Shown here: positions 40,708 to 47,871 of the stretch, one piece after another | How the letters are laid out: every line of letters starts with the position of its first letter | Position numbering within the stretch: position 1 is the first letter of the stretch | Origin: an uncultured Paracoccaceae bacterium | GTDB lineage: Bacteria; Pseudomonadota; Alphaproteobacteria; Rhodobacterales; Rhodobacteraceae | DNA length: 64,000 nt | NCBI GenBank assembly: GCA_947488175.1 | Contig: CANKYO010000004.1 | Location: 310,001-374,000 of the forward strand | Direction of reading: 5' to 3' | Notes under the pieces: generated by a model | Databases searched by the model: none | What the model was told of the DNA's origin: nothing | What the model saw: only the letters and a program-made list of their open reading frames with translations | Made by a program: the position numbers and the translations under genes

Positions 40708-41265
40708 ATGTTGAAACGCTTGATGATCGTTGCCGCCCTTGGCCTTGCTGCTTGCGCACCGCCTCCGGAACGGCTGGCGATGGCGCCGCTGACATCTGAT
40801 CTGGAACTGCGCCCGCTGGTCAGCAGTGTCATGGTGCGCCCTGTGACCTTGCCCACCTACGCAGCGCTGGAAGAAATCGCTTTTGAAACGCCGAACGGCC
40901 TGATCGCCAGCAACGCCGATATCCTCTGGGCCGATGATCAGCAGCGCGCCGTCACGCTGACAGTCACCCGCAATCTGGCGGATATCCTGAACACCAATGT
41001 AGTTCCTGAACCATGGCCCTTTGTCGGCCTGCCTGATGTCGCCGTTGACGTGCAGGTTGAACGGATACTGGCCGGGGCGGACGGGAATTTTCAACTGACC
41101 GGGCAGTTCTATGTGGGCGGTGACGGCATTGATTTCCGCAACAGCAGTCAGGCCTTCGCCATTGCAAAACCCATGGCTGATCAAAGCCTTGGCAGCATCG
41201 CCGCAGCCCAGGCCGCGGCATTGCTGGATTTGTCAGAACAGATCGCCCGGACGCTAGGGCGCTAG
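40708..41265 (+). CDS. pqiC: PqiC-like lipoprotein (ABC-type auxiliary)
   Basis: 185 residues. Lipoprotein signal MLKRLMIVAALGLAAC with Cys16 lipidated, then the PqiC/LptE-like domain: LRPLVSSVMVRPVTLPTYAA, ADILWADDQQRAVTLTVTRNLADIL and VDVQVERILAG. In E. coli PqiC sits in the outer membrane and docks the PqiB tube. Three bases after pqiB. The 3' end overlaps the convergent oxidoreductase gene by 12 bp. Confidence 0.9.
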   Translation: MLKRLMIVAALGLAACAPPPERLAMAPLTSDLELRPLVSSVMVRPVTLPTYAALEEIAFETPNGLIASNADILWADDQQRAVTLTVTRNLADILNTNVVPEPWPFVGLPDVAVDVQVERILAGADGNFQLTGQFYVGGDGIDFRNSSQAFAIAKPMADQSLGSIAAAQAAALLDLSEQIARTLGR

Positions 41266-42393
41266 TTTCACCCAAGCCCCGTCGCGCTTGGACGACCGCA
41301 CACAGGCATCGACAAACTGCATCCCCGCCATACCGTCCGCGATCCCGGGATAGGTGACATCGGCAGGCACATCATTGCCGTCGCGGTGCGCCTCAATCGC
41401 ATCTGCCGCCTCGCGATAGATCGTGGCGAACCCTTCCAGATACCCCTCAGGATGGCCCGCCGGGATGCGGGTCACACGTTCGGCTGCATCCAGCGCGCCC
41501 TTACCGCCACGAGTCAGCAGGCGCTTTGGCTCACCATATGGCGTGAACCACATCTGATTGGGGTTTTCCTGCCGCCATTCGATCCCGCCCTTGTCGCCAT
41601 AAACGCGCAGACCCAGACCGTTTTCATTGCCGGGGGCGACCTGTGAACACCACAACATCCCCCGCGCGCCGCCCTTGTAGCGCAGCATCACATGAGCGTT
41701 GTCATCTAGCTGACGACCCGAGACAAAAGACTGCAGATCAGCACAGAGGCTTTCGACCTCCAGCCCGGTCACAAACCCGGCAAGGTTAAAGGCATGGGTG
41801 CCGATATCCCCAGTCGACCCACCAGCACCAGACCGGGCCGGGTCAACGCGCCAGGCGGCCTGCTTGAAATCCTCCGGCTCGGTCAGCCAATCCTGTGCAT
41901 ACTCCACCTGCACCACCCGGATCGTGCCCAGATCGCCATTGGCCACCATCTGGCGGGCCTGCCGCATCATCGGATAACCGGTGTAATTGTGGGTCAGCAC
42001 AAACAGTGCATCGCTGTCCGCCACGGCCTTCGCCATCTTCTTGGCGTCCGCCATGGTCGATGTCAGCGGCTTGTCGCAGATCACGTGAATGCCGCGTTTC
42101 AGAAATTCGCGGGCAGCGGCGTAATGGACATGGTTCGGGGTCACAATCGCCACCGCCTCGATCCCGTCTTTCAGCCGCGCCTCGCGGATCGCCATCGACT
42201 TGAAATCATCATATGTCCGCGCGGGCTCAAGACCCAGCGCCTGCCCCGAGGCTTGCGCCTTTTCCGGGGTCGATGACAGCGCACCGGCCACCAGTTGAAA
42301 CCGTCCATCAATCCGCGATGCAATACGGTGCACCGCACCGATAAACGCATCATTGCCGCCGCCCACCATGCCAAGTCGAATAGGTCGCGTCAT
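41254..42393 (-). CDS. Gfo/Idh/MocA family oxidoreductase
   Basis: 379 residues from the ATG at 42393; a TTG two codons earlier is unlikely. NAD(P)-dependent sugar or inositol-type dehydrogenase: Rossmann loop LGMVGGGNDAFIGAVH, IVTPNHVHYAAA, then CDKPLTSTMADA in the place of the usual EKP motif, and GSTGDIGTHAFNLAGFVTG in the C-terminal substrate domain. Substrate unknown. It starts 2 bp after the stop of the TIM-barrel isomerase gene, so the two should act on the same sugar. Confidence 0.93.
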   Translation of the reverse strand: MTRPIRLGMVGGGNDAFIGAVHRIASRIDGRFQLVAGALSSTPEKAQASGQALGLEPARTYDDFKSMAIREARLKDGIEAVAIVTPNHVHYAAAREFLKRGIHVICDKPLTSTMADAKKMAKAVADSDALFVLTHNYTGYPMMRQARQMVANGDLGTIRVVQVEYAQDWLTEPEDFKQAAWRVDPARSGAGGSTGDIGTHAFNLAGFVTGLEVESLCADLQSFVSGRQLDDNAHVMLRYKGGARGMLWCSQVAPGNENGLGLRVYGDKGGIEWRQENPNQMWFTPYGEPKRLLTRGGKGALDAAERVTRIPAGHPEGYLEGFATIYREAADAIEAHRDGNDVPADVTYPGIADGMAGMQFVDACVRSSKRDGAWVKLAP

Positions 42394-42395
42394 CT

Positions 42396-43448
42396 TCAAA
42401 TCCCCAGCATCTTGCGGTTGGTTGCGTCGTCCACATCGCCGCCTGCGAAGTCATCAAACGCACGTGCGGTCACCCGAATGATGTGATCCTTGACGAATTG
42501 CGCGCCCTCCCGCGCGCCGTCCTCAGGGTGCTTCAGGCAGCATTCCCATTCGACCACGGCCCAACCACTGAAATCATTGGCTGCCATCTTGGAAAAGATT
42601 GCCGCGAAATCAACCTGCCCGTCGCCCAGCGACCGGAACCGCCCCGACCGGTTGACCCATGACTGATAACCGCCATAGACACCCTGCCGCCCGGTCGGAT
42701 TGAATTCGGCATCCTTGACGTGGAACATCTTGATCCGGTCTTTGTAGATGTCGATATTGTCCAGATAATCAAGGCATTGCAGGACGTAGTGGGATGGATC
42801 GTAAAGCATATTGCAGCGGGCGTGCCCATTCAGACGTTCCAGAAACATCTCGAACGTCACACCATCATGCAGGTCCTCACCGGGGTGAATTTCATAGCAG
42901 ACGTCCACCCCGCAATCCTCTGCATGGTCCAGAATAGGACGCCAACGGGACGCAAGTTCATCAAACGCCGCTTCAACCAGGCCGGCAGGGCGCTGCGGCC
43001 ACGGGTAGATGTAAGGCCATGCCAGGGCACCTGAAAAGGTCGCCATTTCAGTCAGGCCCATGTTCTTTGACGCGCTCAATGCCAGCTTGACCTGATCCAC
43101 CGCCCAGGCCTGTCGGGCTGCGGGGTTGCCCTGAACCTCGGGTGCAGCAAAGCCGTCGAAAGCGGTATCATAGGCCGGGTTTACGGCAACCAATTGCCCT
43201 TGCAGATGCGTTGATAACTCGGTGACCGTAATGCCGTTCTCTGCCGCTTGACCTTTAAATTCATCGCAATAATCCTGCGACGATGCCGCCTTTTGCAGAT
43301 CAAACAACCGGCCATCCCAACTGGGCACCTGCACCCCTTTGTAACCGCAATCGGCGGCCCATTTCGTGATGGCATCCCACGAGTTGAAAGGTGCCTCATC
43401 GCCAGCGAACTGCGCCAGAAACAGCGCCGGCCCTTTGATGGTTTTCAT
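42396..43448 (-). CDS. Sugar phosphate isomerase/epimerase (TIM barrel)
   Basis: 350 residues, RBS GGGAGGA. Xylose-isomerase-like TIM barrel (AP endonuclease family 2 fold): WAADCGYKGVQVPSWD, GVDVCYEIHPGEDLHDG, NMLYDPSHYVLQCLDYLDNI, KMFHVKDAEFNPTGRQG and SGWAVVEWECC. These supply the metal-binding Glu, Asp, His and Glu residues. Coupled to the downstream Gfo/Idh gene. Such pairs handle inositols, ketosugars or 3-keto glycosides; no sugar transporter is adjacent. Confidence 0.9.
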   Translation of the reverse strand: MKTIKGPALFLAQFAGDEAPFNSWDAITKWAADCGYKGVQVPSWDGRLFDLQKAASSQDYCDEFKGQAAENGITVTELSTHLQGQLVAVNPAYDTAFDGFAAPEVQGNPAARQAWAVDQVKLALSASKNMGLTEMATFSGALAWPYIYPWPQRPAGLVEAAFDELASRWRPILDHAEDCGVDVCYEIHPGEDLHDGVTFEMFLERLNGHARCNMLYDPSHYVLQCLDYLDNIDIYKDRIKMFHVKDAEFNPTGRQGVYGGYQSWVNRSGRFRSLGDGQVDFAAIFSKMAANDFSGWAVVEWECCLKHPEDGAREGAQFVKDHIIRVTARAFDDFAGGDVDDATNRKMLGI

Positions 43449-43543: not shown

Positions 43544-44521
43544 ATGCTGATCGACAACCTGCAATATGCCAATTGGTCCGAAACAATCTTTCGCCAGATG
43601 CGCGCGGGCGGTGTCGACGCCGTTCATGCCACTATCGCCTATCACGAGAATTTCCGCGAAACCGTGCTGAATATTGAAAAGTGGAACCGGGATTTCGAAC
43701 GGTTCCCTGATCTGATCATGCAGGCACGCAGTGCGGCGGATGTTGACACAGCCAAGGCCACGGGGCGGACGGCCATCATATTCGGGGCACAAAACCCCAG
43801 CCCGATTGAAGATGACATCGGGCTGGTGGAAATCCTGCACACGCTTGGTCTGCGTTTTATGCAGCTCAGCTACAACAACCAGTCACTGCTTGCGACCGGC
43901 TGTTATGAGGCCGACGACCCCGGCATCACCCGCATGGGCCGTCAGGTCATTGCGGAAATGAACCGGGTGGGAATGGTCGTGGATATGAGCCACAGCGCGG
44001 ACCGGTCCACGATAGAGGCCGCCGAGATTTCGACGCGGCCCATCGCAATCACCCACGCCAACCCGCATGTCTGGCACCCGGCGTTGCGCAACAAGCATGA
44101 TGAGGTGATCCGGGCGGTGACCGAAAACGGTGGCATGTTCGGCTTTTCGATTTACCCGCACCATTTACGGGGCGGTCCTGACTGCACCCTTCAGGATTTC
44201 TGCGAGATGATCGCCCGAACAGCCGAAAAATTCGGCACGGCGCATCTCGGGCTGGGCACCGATTTGTGTCAGGATCAGCCGGACAGCGTGGTGGAATGGA
44301 TGCGTGTCGGGCGGTGGACCAAGCAGATCGACTATGGCGAAGGATCTGCAAACAATCCCGGCTTTCCGCCCATGCCCGGTTGGTTCAAGGACAATCGGGA
44401 TTTCGGCAATATCGCGGCCGGTCTGCGCGCCACGGGCATGGATGAAGCCGAGGTGGCCGGTATCATGGGCGGCAACTGGTATCGGTTCTACCGTGACAGT
44501 TTTGGGCCAGCGTCAGTTTGA
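43544..44521 (+). CDS. M19 'membrane dipeptidase' homologue with altered metal site
   Basis: 325 residues, no signal peptide. The renal dipeptidase (M19) TIM-barrel fold is clear: VDMSHSADRSTIEAA, PIAITHANPHVWHP and LGLGTDLCQD align with the second-metal His, His and catalytic Asp regions. The N-terminal HxD ligand motif (DGHxD in the family) is replaced by IDNLQYANW, the bridging Glu by Gln in FGAQNPSPIEDD, and the LTH histidine by LSY. The binuclear site of true dipeptidases is therefore probably not formed, and the reaction may differ. Divergent from the sugar isomerase; the 3' end overlaps the phytochrome gene by 9 bp. Confidence 0.85.
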   Translation: MLIDNLQYANWSETIFRQMRAGGVDAVHATIAYHENFRETVLNIEKWNRDFERFPDLIMQARSAADVDTAKATGRTAIIFGAQNPSPIEDDIGLVEILHTLGLRFMQLSYNNQSLLATGCYEADDPGITRMGRQVIAEMNRVGMVVDMSHSADRSTIEAAEISTRPIAITHANPHVWHPALRNKHDEVIRAVTENGGMFGFSIYPHHLRGGPDCTLQDFCEMIARTAEKFGTAHLGLGTDLCQDQPDSVVEWMRVGRWTKQIDYGEGSANNPGFPPMPGWFKDNRDFGNIAAGLRATGMDEAEVAGIMGGNWYRFYRDSFGPASV

Positions 44522-47077
44522 ATCTGTGGCAATAGCCTTGCGTAACTCGGCCTCATCATAAGGTTTGGTGAGGATCGGAATATCTGCATATTTTTCCGCC
44601 ATATCAGGGACTTTGCCGTAACCGCTCGCAAAGACAAACGGCACCTCCTTCTCCAGCAGCTTGTCAGCAACGGGAAACGACGTTTCGGCACCCAGGTTGA
44701 TATCGAGTACCACGAAATCAAAATCGGCCTGTGTCAACGCCTCCAACGCCTCTGCGACGCCCGGAACGATGGTCGTCTCTTCTACACCAATCCGTTGTAG
44801 CAGGGTTTCCGCATCCAGACCGATGATGATGTTGTCTTCGACGATCAGGACTCGGTCGGGTGGCGCTGATAATGGGGTTTGCTCTGGCGATGCGGGTGCA
44901 ACGACATCATCCTCGTCCGTCACAAAGCTGTCGACCGTGTTGGCTGGCAATACAAAGCTGGCCTCGACCCCCGTCAGTGTAAAACGCAGATCGGCTTCTC
45001 CTTTCAACTCGAACGGGATCGACCGTTCGATAATCGTCGTCCCGAACCCGCGCCGCTCTGGCGCACTGACGGCTGGTCCGCCGGTTTCAACCCATGTCAG
45101 ACCCAGCCCGTCATCGGATGTCTGCGCAAGATTGATCGCGACCTTGCCGTGCTCTGCTGCCAACGCCCCGTATTTGACCGAGTTGGTCATCATCTCATGC
45201 ACGACAAGGGCCATGGTTGTATGCGCGTTCGGCACCAGCATCACATCCGGACCGGTGATTGTCAGCCGATCCATGCGGTCATTCAGGTAGGCCGCCGCCT
45301 CCGTCTCGATCAACGCGCGCAGTGACGCGGGTTGCCATTTTTCGCGGGTGATCTGATCGTGCGCCATGGCGAGCGCATGGATGCGCCCACCGATCACTTT
45401 TGTGAAAGAACTGACATCATTATGGCCTGCCCCGCTCTGGCTGACGACGCCCTTGATCAGGTTCAGGGTATTGCGCACCCGGTGGTTCAGTTCTGCAATC
45501 AGCAGTTCCTGCTTTTCCTGGGCCTTTGCGCGTTCGTGCAGATTGGCATCAGCCATGCGCAACACGACCTCCATCAGCGTGACCCGCAGCGCTTCTGCCG
45601 ATCTGATTTGCGCCGGTGTCCATTCGGCACAATGGTTGCGCACGGTTTCCTGCCAGGCCTCAAAGCTTTTGCGCGGCGTCAGTCGGGGGCCAAACCTGCC
45701 CTGCACCAAATTTTTGACGGGTTTGCCAGCCCACACGACGGATTTCGCGATTTCACGGCGAAACAGCACGATAAAATCACGCGGCGCACGGGAAACCGGC
45801 AGAACGAGCATACCAGCCGCCTTGTTGACATAGGCCAGCGCGTCCGAAAAATGATCGCTCAGGCACTGGGTTGCATACACCTTGCCTGCAGCCGTTGTGT
45901 TCAAGAACGGCATCAGTTCCAAAAAGGCATCCTTGCCCGGCGTTTCGCCGGTGCTTTGATAGGTGCCATCAATCCAGCCGACAGCCCCGTCATGCGGGAT
46001 CACGTCCTGAATGGTGCTGACGATGGTGGCGAAGTTATTGGCGACAGAGGTATCGCCGGCCAATTGCACCATGATCTGGTCATGCAGCATTTGCGACCGG
46101 ATCATATCCCGCCGCTCGATATCGGATTGCAACTGATCCAGCGTATAGGAAAACAGCAGACCAAAAAGCTCGGCCGCAGATCGCACAGCGTAGGAATGCA
46201 CTTTTGGCGTCCGGTGATGGCAAGCAATCAGCCCCCATAATTCACCGCGTACCACGATTGAGATCGACATAGACGCGCCAACCCCCATATTGCGCAGATA
46301 TTCCAGGTGAATGGGCGAAACCGCACGCGTGCTACTCAGGCTCAGATCCAGCGGCGCGCCCTCGGGGTTGAGTGTCGGTGCGATCTCAACCCCGGTGTCG
46401 GTCACATCTGCAATGACACGCAACGGATTACGTATGAACAGTTTTCTGACCTGTTGGGGGATGTCCGATGCGGGATAGGCCAAACCCAGATAGGCCTCCA
46501 TGCCGGGTTCCTTCACCTCGGCGATAACCTTGCCACTGCCATTTGCCGAAAACTGATAGACCATCACACGGTCCATTCCGGTCAGCATCTTCACCTGCCG
46601 GGCAGCCATCTGGCACAGTTGCGCCATGGTCGCGCATTGCGACATCCGGGCAATCATGGGGCGTACATAGCCGCCCAGATCGGCCTCCTCACCATTGGCA
46701 CTATGCTCGAACTCAAGCACCAGATTACGCCCGGACCGGTGTATCGCAATGTCGCAAACCGGGCCATCCCGGGCCGTCTGGATCGCAAACAAGCGATCGA
46801 CCATATCGTCAGATGCCACCAGCCGCAGTCGCGACTGAATGGCGTCAATGGTCTGTTCGGTCAGGACATCCCGGATCGGGCAACCGATCACATTCTTTGC
46901 CGGCAGACCAAGCATGCGGCACAGATTGCCGGATGCATGATTGATCATCCAATCCTCGGTCACAGACATCAACGCGCCAAAGGACTGGATCCTGCCGGGG
47001 ATATGGACCGGTTCACGGTCACAATTGTTGATGCCAAGCGTCGCCTCATCGACCGCCGGATTATTGTCAGGCGGCAT
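44513..47077 (-). CDS. bphP: Bacteriophytochrome HWE histidine kinase with C-terminal receiver
   Basis: 854 residues from the ATG at 47077. Red/far-red photosensor kinase. Domains: PAS with biliverdin-binding Cys19 in NNCDREPVHIPG; GAF (about 145-310) with PASDIP at 202-207; PHY (about 330-505) with the tongue motif PRKSF at 468-472; an HWE/HisKA_2-type kinase (about 515-715) with phospho-His532 in ELNHRVRN, HEMMTNSVKYGALA and the TWVE motif; and a receiver (741-850) with acidic pair Glu747/Asp748, phospho-Asp792 in LDINLG and Lys838. No DNA-binding output domain. The start overlaps the upstream heme oxygenase gene by 11 bp. Confidence 0.95.
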   Translation of the reverse strand: MPPDNNPAVDEATLGINNCDREPVHIPGRIQSFGALMSVTEDWMINHASGNLCRMLGLPAKNVIGCPIRDVLTEQTIDAIQSRLRLVASDDMVDRLFAIQTARDGPVCDIAIHRSGRNLVLEFEHSANGEEADLGGYVRPMIARMSQCATMAQLCQMAARQVKMLTGMDRVMVYQFSANGSGKVIAEVKEPGMEAYLGLAYPASDIPQQVRKLFIRNPLRVIADVTDTGVEIAPTLNPEGAPLDLSLSSTRAVSPIHLEYLRNMGVGASMSISIVVRGELWGLIACHHRTPKVHSYAVRSAAELFGLLFSYTLDQLQSDIERRDMIRSQMLHDQIMVQLAGDTSVANNFATIVSTIQDVIPHDGAVGWIDGTYQSTGETPGKDAFLELMPFLNTTAAGKVYATQCLSDHFSDALAYVNKAAGMLVLPVSRAPRDFIVLFRREIAKSVVWAGKPVKNLVQGRFGPRLTPRKSFEAWQETVRNHCAEWTPAQIRSAEALRVTLMEVVLRMADANLHERAKAQEKQELLIAELNHRVRNTLNLIKGVVSQSGAGHNDVSSFTKVIGGRIHALAMAHDQITREKWQPASLRALIETEAAAYLNDRMDRLTITGPDVMLVPNAHTTMALVVHEMMTNSVKYGALAAEHGKVAINLAQTSDDGLGLTWVETGGPAVSAPERRGFGTTIIERSIPFELKGEADLRFTLTGVEASFVLPANTVDSFVTDEDDVVAPASPEQTPLSAPPDRVLIVEDNIIIGLDAETLLQRIGVEETTIVPGVAEALEALTQADFDFVVLDINLGAETSFPVADKLLEKEVPFVFASGYGKVPDMAEKYADIPILTKPYDEAELRKAIATDSN

Positions 47078-47618
47078 TGGCACGTCCCCCGTTCTTTGCG
47101 GCCACCAGACTGTCGTAAAACAGTCCAAAGGTGCGGTCTGCATCCGCAGCAAGCAGTTTCAAATCATTTGCCGGATCGGTCAGCGCCTCGATATCGTCGA
47201 GGAAGCGTAACCAACCCGTTTTCAGCTCATCGCAGGACAGATAGGCCCCAGCAGCCCGGACCTGCGGATCCCGCGACAAGGACCAGCGCCGTCGCAGTAT
47301 TCGTTTGCCGAAATGCGAACCGCAAACAACGTACGCTACGCCAAGCGGGTGAATGGGGTCACGCAGACCGATCATTGGCCGGGGTAACCCCGGTACATCC
47401 ATGACATCCAGATCCTGGTTCAGCGTTGTCAAAACGCGGCGCAAGATGGAACTGACCCAATTATCCGCCGGCAGGGCGGGCAAAAGCGCACGATAGGCCA
47501 ACTGATGGGTGCGCAGAAAGGTGATGTATGATGCGCGATGGGCCAGCGACAAGGTACTGACGGCCTGATCAACACGCTGGTGCGCCGCGGCCGTGTGCTG
47601 TTTGAGTTTTGTTCGCAT
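47067..47618 (-). CDS. bphO: Biliverdin-forming heme oxygenase
   Basis: 183 residues from the ATG at 47618 (AGGAAGGA upstream). Heme oxygenase fold: N-terminal KLKQHTAAAHQRVDQ gives His13 as the likely proximal heme ligand, YITFLRTHQLAYRALLPAL follows, and the distal-helix region with LGVAYVVCGSHFGKRIL has the Gly-rich kink of the family. Opens heme to biliverdin, the chromophore of the phytochrome encoded immediately downstream with an 11-bp overlap. The pair therefore supplies and uses its own pigment. Confidence 0.9.
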   Translation of the reverse strand: MRTKLKQHTAAAHQRVDQAVSTLSLAHRASYITFLRTHQLAYRALLPALPADNWVSSILRRVLTTLNQDLDVMDVPGLPRPMIGLRDPIHPLGVAYVVCGSHFGKRILRRRWSLSRDPQVRAAGAYLSCDELKTGWLRFLDDIEALTDPANDLKLLAADADRTFGLFYDSLVAAKNGGRANAA

Positions 47619-47871
47619 CGGTCCTTCCTGTCGCCGTAACGGGCATTTGGTGGTCAGAAACACGTTGCGCGCACCGCGCCAGCGTCAGCACTTTGTTCAA
47701 GCGCGATCAAGACACGGATTCACAGTCACTCACCCACGCAAGAAGGATCGGGCGAAGTGGTTAACAATTTGTTTACGAATACTCAGAGTACACCAAATAC
47801 AACCATAGCGCGATCCCGCAAAACAAGGGGAAATGGCATTGCGTCAATGGGCCGAATAGGGAACACTCTGC

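Follow-up and report, generated by a model that had tools for sequence, protein, structure and literature searches.

A conserved branch of peptidase family M19 with an altered metal site, and the genes that accompany it

The window analysed here is a stretch of 64,000 nucleotides from contig CANKYO010000004.1 of an uncultured Paracoccaceae bacterium. It carries a gene of the M19 dipeptidase fold in which several residues of the metal site appear to be replaced. The question is whether the product is still a dipeptidase and, if not, in which pathway it might take part. The gene is the following:

43544..44521, plus strand: gene of the M19-fold protein, an intact open reading frame of 325 aa, recognized by Pfam, AlphaFold2 model and structure match

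The M19 protein and its metal site

The protein belongs to peptidase family M19 by both profile and barrel fold. It matched PF01244 (Peptidase_M19) with an E value of 1.1e-74 and 252 bits against a cut-off of 26, as the sole PF01244 match in its genome, and its AlphaFold2 model (pLDDT 90, pTM 0.90) aligned with 17 M19 entries at Z 34-45, the following group being at 17.5. The best structural match was 2I5G (Z 45.2, 315 residues, 35% identity) and canonical dipeptidases came next with Z 34-37, so the fold is retained, as a preliminary description of this DNA had claimed. No signal peptide is apparent in the protein, whose first predicted strand starts at residue 3, so it is probably cytosolic. 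The dN/dS against five relatives was about 0.04-0.11, with saturated dS, and together with the open frame this rules out a pseudogene.

The positions of interest in the metal site are:

43559..43567, plus strand: codons of L6-Q7-Y8, standing where strand 1 ends and canonical enzymes have HxD (position inferred from alignment end points)
43790..43792, plus strand: codon of Q83, at the position of the bridging Glu
43871..43873, plus strand: codon of Y110, at the position of the LTH histidine
43991..43993, plus strand: codon of H150, a kept ligand of the second metal
44054..44056, plus strand: codon of H171, a kept ligand of the second metal
44261..44263, plus strand: codon of D240, the kept Asp of strand 8

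The preliminary description had stated that the N-terminal HxD is absent, that the bridging Glu is Gln and the LTH histidine Tyr, and that the other His and Asp positions remain. Alignment with human renal dipeptidase and bacterial M19 enzymes, which it had recommended, brought out the same three changes. Canonical-looking M19 proteins of related genomes have the motif series FDGHND..MEG..SH..THS..GSD, and that of the window protein is IDNLQYA..GAQN..LSYNN..DMSH..ITHA..GTD. At the N-terminus, IDNLQYA stands against FDGHND in two canonical M19 proteins of related genomes, and no His occurs in the first 27 residues, H28 being the first. In the structural alignment the first residue of the model is set against residue 15 of human renal dipeptidase; as the tool gives end points only, L6 and Y8 would fall on the positions of His20 and Asp22 if the alignment is ungapped, two residues which, in number and role, we take to be ligands of the human enzyme.

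In the phmmer alignment with 3id7 of Streptomyces coelicolor, GAQN paired with GAEG, LSYNN with LTHND, DMSH with DLSH and ITHA with FSHS, and GTDL of the window protein paired with GSDF of GliJ (5lx0). Among the features of an M19 dipeptidase, the HxD, the bridging Glu and the LTH His were therefore not found, and the two histidines of the second metal and the strand-8 Asp, presumably the general base, were present. Human renal dipeptidase (1ITQ), Sco3058 (3ID7) and GliJ (5LWZ) share with the window protein the fold (Z 35-37), the SH and TH histidines and the strand-8 Asp, but they have the three elements which it lacks. The LTH histidine is not universal, because the canonical-looking relative in locus L079 has Trp at this position.

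A conserved subfamily and its sister branch

Q83, Y110, H150, H171 and D240 were identical in all 112 relatives of a first set. In a larger set, made up of 132 different sequences sharing 50% identity or more, these five residues and also N111 and R182 were invariant, and L6 differed once. L6, Q83, Y110, H150, H171 and D240 were also kept in 14 of 15 more distant relatives, the exception (L172) having Glu at position 83 and being an outlier in the tree. A chance substitution in one genome is ruled out by this conservation. The window protein also carries the atypical pattern of 2I5G: IDxL, E35, QN at 83-84, YNxQ at 110-113, SH, H171 and D240. The alignments and the tree show, at the level of sequence, that the window protein is a member of a distinct, conserved M19 subfamily, throughout which other residues occupy the places of HxD, bridging Glu and LTH His, with the two later histidines and the strand-8 Asp invariant. 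A distinct subfamily had been proposed in advance; the further suggestion that it has another metal content or reaction would fit these replacements.

Two unusual copies were seen among the relatives. The one in L172 (G299:C13, 6872-7861) has the motifs DSHAG, IEGAD and VYNRNN, so that the Glu is kept and the Asp of HxD is not, and it adjoins an aldehyde dehydrogenase 52% like that of the operon described below. The M19 copy of Neorhizobium galegae (L124:11374-12332) spans two frames, and looks broken or misread there.

Residues that might substitute for the lost ligands were found near strand 2, and two of them are adjacent:

43643..43648, plus strand: codons of H34-E35, which follow predicted strand 2 directly and may be substitute ligands or catalytic residues

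E35 was invariant in all 147 rows, near and distant, and H28, H34 and H207 in the 132 rows of the nearer subclade but not in the distant rows. In the AlphaFold2 model strand 2 is residues 26-33, and H34 and E35 come directly after it, beside strand 1 where HxD was lost, which makes them candidates for a rebuilt site. An ordinary M19 dipeptidase with metal ligands supplied from other positions would have the same fold and could use these residues, with E35, H28 and H34 in or just after the predicted strand. We consider this improbable: a dipeptidase would not be expected to have Gln and Tyr at positions 83 and 110 or the betaine-type neighbourhood described below, and loci L079 and L058 carry canonical-looking M19 genes besides their members of the branch.

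Close homologues are named "membrane dipeptidase" or "dipeptidase", just as had been predicted; these labels were seen on plasmid-borne relatives, some with the GO term proteolysis. Where annotation was looked at, the name "dipeptidase" is very likely wrong for this branch. NCBIfam gave no name for the M19 protein or for the two partner proteins, c1 and the DUF3726 protein, introduced below.

2I5G, an "amidohydrolase" of Pseudomonas aeruginosa which we take to be PA5396, is similar to the window protein over the whole length and shares the pattern IDxL, GxQN, YNxQ, SH, SH, GTD, but it groups with the distant rows without H28, H34 and H207. Genes of this sister branch precede a DUF5943 gene and a gene for a DgcA-like Oxidored_FMN protein (L163 tested), whereas c1 and DUF3726 genes accompany the window branch. 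In Vibrio natriegens a cluster pepD_hp_dgcAB_fixAB is described, of which the first two genes are also in P. aeruginosa (PMC12093977). There pepD, predicted to be a dipeptidase, stands among genes of betaine degradation, but the window gene does not adjoin dgcAB. PP_0308, a "dipeptidase", is tabulated with dgcA in the RoxR regulon in another paper (PMC10963909). The position of the sister branch in a dimethylglycine demethylase operon, as seen in L163 and described in PMC12093977, is an independent link to N-methylated compounds. Because 2I5G has been solved since 2006 and "pepD" has been noticed near dgcAB, the branch is not categorically new. We found no paper that describes the altered M19 site or the pairing with c1 and DUF3726, and a subscription paper may do so. 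The subfamily is already known to structure (2I5G, 2006); what is new is its gene company.

Gene company of the M19 branch

Genomic partners of close homologues, which the preliminary description had wished to see, were surveyed in 111 loci as first collected. The M19 gene was called in 105 of them, and in 54 of these it had three called genes to either side; the calls were our own codon-score calls, by which some genes were missed or merged. Within three genes of M19 in the 54 loci, we found c1, a protein of about 550 aa, in 45, an aldehyde dehydrogenase in 26, an Ldh_2 protein in 18 and a LysR regulator in 17. The loci divided into 23 with aldehyde dehydrogenase and c1, 22 with c1 only, three with aldehyde dehydrogenase only and six with neither. 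Usually the M19 and c1 genes adjoin each other and a DUF3726 gene, often with aldehyde dehydrogenase, Ldh_2, LysR and betaine transporters. A BCCT or ProXWV-type betaine transporter was within six genes of M19 in 17 of the 54 loci: 16 of the 26 with aldehyde dehydrogenase and one of the 28 without.

The full set was found in Ruegeria sp. TM1040 in the order LysR, aldehyde dehydrogenase, M19, BCCT, c1, DUF3726, Ldh; sarcosine oxidase genes lie upstream of it at a distance of two genes. In Aminobacter it is accompanied by glycine betaine ABC genes, and in Sinorhizobium c1, a second ORF and M19 stand in a different order ahead of ABC transporter genes. The order aldehyde dehydrogenase, M19, BCCT, c1 was present in all five more distant proteobacterial loci (L154-L158), the M19 position in L156 being taken from a sequence match in a gap between called genes; LysR precedes the aldehyde dehydrogenase in four of them, and the fifth ends at a contig end. 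The aldehyde dehydrogenase of the operon is nearest to 2,5-dioxovalerate dehydrogenases. In a haloarchaeon, Natrinema versiforme, plasmid pNVE500 (L122) carries an aldehyde dehydrogenase, c1, an Ldh_2-like half protein and BCCT. No M19 gene was found there within 19.6 kb, so c1 does not need M19 everywhere.

No Pfam or NCBIfam match was obtained for c1. Its AlphaFold2 model (pLDDT 87, pTM 0.89) had no match in the PDB at E of 0.001 or below with Foldseek (best 0.4), and a second structure comparison gave Z of 5.5 at most, which does not by itself show a new fold. The proteins at the DUF3726 position in L154 (11551-12315) and L122 (10671-11621) score to the N-terminal part of Ldh_2, and for a distant-locus DUF3726 protein this match had an E value of 1e-9 and 38.5 bits, just under the Pfam cut-off of 38.8. 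By these scores it looks like a half-length relative of Ldh_2, and the Ldh_2 family may include DUF3726 as a truncated branch. In L052 (989-3286) a single open frame spans c1 and DUF3726, either as a natural fusion or through a sequencing error; a joint alignment of the two on this fusion was dropped because the DUF3726 rows were wrongly spread.

Co-occurrence was determined in 292 genomes of the window's order, with E below 1e-100 for the M19 branch and up to 1e-20 for c1. Both were present in 160 genomes, M19 alone in none, c1 alone in three and neither in 129. In the three c1-alone genomes, c1 lies near a contig end (G050) or its match is weak (G124 and G274). The counted genomes are related (one family among the rows listed), so a Fisher p value overstates their independence. 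M19 and c1 occur together even when they are not linked, which is the case in the window's genome and its genus.

At the window's own locus, M19 is flanked by the TIM-barrel gene below and by a phytochrome kinase gene, and does not stand before DUF5943/DgcA:

41254..42399, minus strand: Gfo/Idh/MocA oxidoreductase, adjoining the TIM-barrel gene, also in related loci
42396..43448, minus strand: AP_endonuc_2-type TIM barrel with weak IolE similarity, divergent neighbour of the M19 gene

The bacteriophytochrome (44513-47152, minus strand) has PAS_2, GAF and PHY domains, an HWE histidine kinase and a C-terminal receiver domain. Upstream of its gene and overlapping it, an ORF of 198 aa (47067-47663, minus strand) had no Pfam match at E 0.001, and in our reading resembles a divergent heme oxygenase.

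L044 and L053 have Gfo/Idh, TIM barrel and LysR in one direction, then aldehyde dehydrogenase and M19 in the other, with one extra gene call in L053; in the window and L032, Gfo/Idh and the TIM barrel are followed directly by M19. In a genus sample of 21 genomes, 14 had a match to the aldehyde dehydrogenase with E of at most 1e-100, and the window's genome and G130 had M19 and c1 with no aldehyde dehydrogenase at E 1e-100. From this order and these counts, LysR and the aldehyde dehydrogenase were probably lost at the window locus, while purifying selection continued to act on M19. Contig C4 of the window's genome carries M19, and C8 carries c1 with DUF3726 (148495-150659).

Possible function of the branch

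The explanation to which we give an even chance, on the residues and gene company together, is that the M19 protein is a cytosolic hydrolase with a one-metal or rebuilt site, a non-dipeptidase branch of M19 that would act in betaine breakdown in one pathway with c1. One metal could be bound at the retained H150/H171 site with assistance from either Q83 or E35/H34, and D240 might activate water as the base. The substrate of the M19 protein would be an intermediate formed when betaines or N-methylated heterocycles are broken down, in which it would hydrolyze a C-N bond (amide, formamide, lactam) or a lactone bond. The same pathway may also employ c1 and the Ldh_2-like half protein DUF3726; in loci with an aldehyde dehydrogenase this enzyme would oxidize a semialdehyde, and an Ldh_2 enzyme, if there is one, would reduce an imine. 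The window's genome would then keep only M19, c1 and DUF3726, at two places. NagA of E. coli and D-aminoacylase are mononuclear amidohydrolases of the same superfamily with one metal at the two-His site, but they are of other families, with Glu or Cys as third ligand, where the window protein has Gln. Against the betaine reading, 28 of the 54 loci have no aldehyde dehydrogenase and 37 no betaine transporter within six genes. Another objection is that Gln makes a weak bridging ligand, and metal may therefore be absent from the site.

Another reading is that M19 is no longer a hydrolase: it would be a metal-free or weak one-metal structural or regulatory subunit together with c1 and DUF3726, or would catalyze a non-hydrolytic step such as isomerization or decarboxylation. 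The loss of three site residues and the strict co-occurrence with c1 speak for it, and a DUF3726 partner which itself looks like a half-length Ldh_2 relative suggests an unusual assembly. But E35, Q83, Y110, N111, H150, H171, R182 and D240, at or near strand ends, are invariant, as would be expected of an active site more than of a scaffold, and we regard this reading as rather unlikely, at about one chance in four.

As a special case, and an attractive one, the hydrolase reading could be narrowed to one compound. Homarine (N-methylpicolinate) may be degraded by a route analogous to the trigonelline pathway, and homABCDER is a homarine operon in Ruegeria. The aldehyde-dehydrogenase operon might be a homarine operon, of which the window gene was kept after loss of other parts: ring opening would give an N-formyl-N-methyl semialdehyde, the dehydrogenase would oxidize it, M19 would remove the formyl group, and an Ldh_2-type imine reduction would yield N-methylglutamate. 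By this analogy the content of LysR, aldehyde dehydrogenase, M19, c1, DUF3726, Ldh_2 and BCCT would suit the route. A 2026 paper states, with reference to Ferrer-Gonzalez et al. 2026, that Mgd takes part in homarine catabolism (PMC13390433), and none of the papers that we read names the operon. In the window's genome the best aldehyde dehydrogenase is about 35% identical, hence not a close one, and the best Ldh_2 only 42%; there is no separate GXGXG subunit, as only the GltB copy has GXGXG. It means that an MgdB-like subunit, and so Mgd, is absent. We consider the homarine route doubtful, though somewhat less so than a non-hydrolytic role.

The window protein thus represents a known fold in a variant form that is real, conserved and very probably mislabelled, and its functional link is useful and testable. 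The dipeptidase label misleads metabolic reconstruction of marine bacteria, since 160 of the 292 genomes sampled in the order carry the protein, and the strict pairing with c1 makes its function testable and allows c1, DUF3726 and the M19 branch to be placed in one pathway. More tentatively, with a chance of roughly one in three, M19, c1 and the DUF3726/Ldh_2-half protein may form a widespread, unrecognized module, with a one-metal or metal-free M19 site new to the family and c1 as an enzyme family without a characterized member. If this is true, the three-protein module would carry out a new step in the breakdown of betaines or N-methyl heterocycles.
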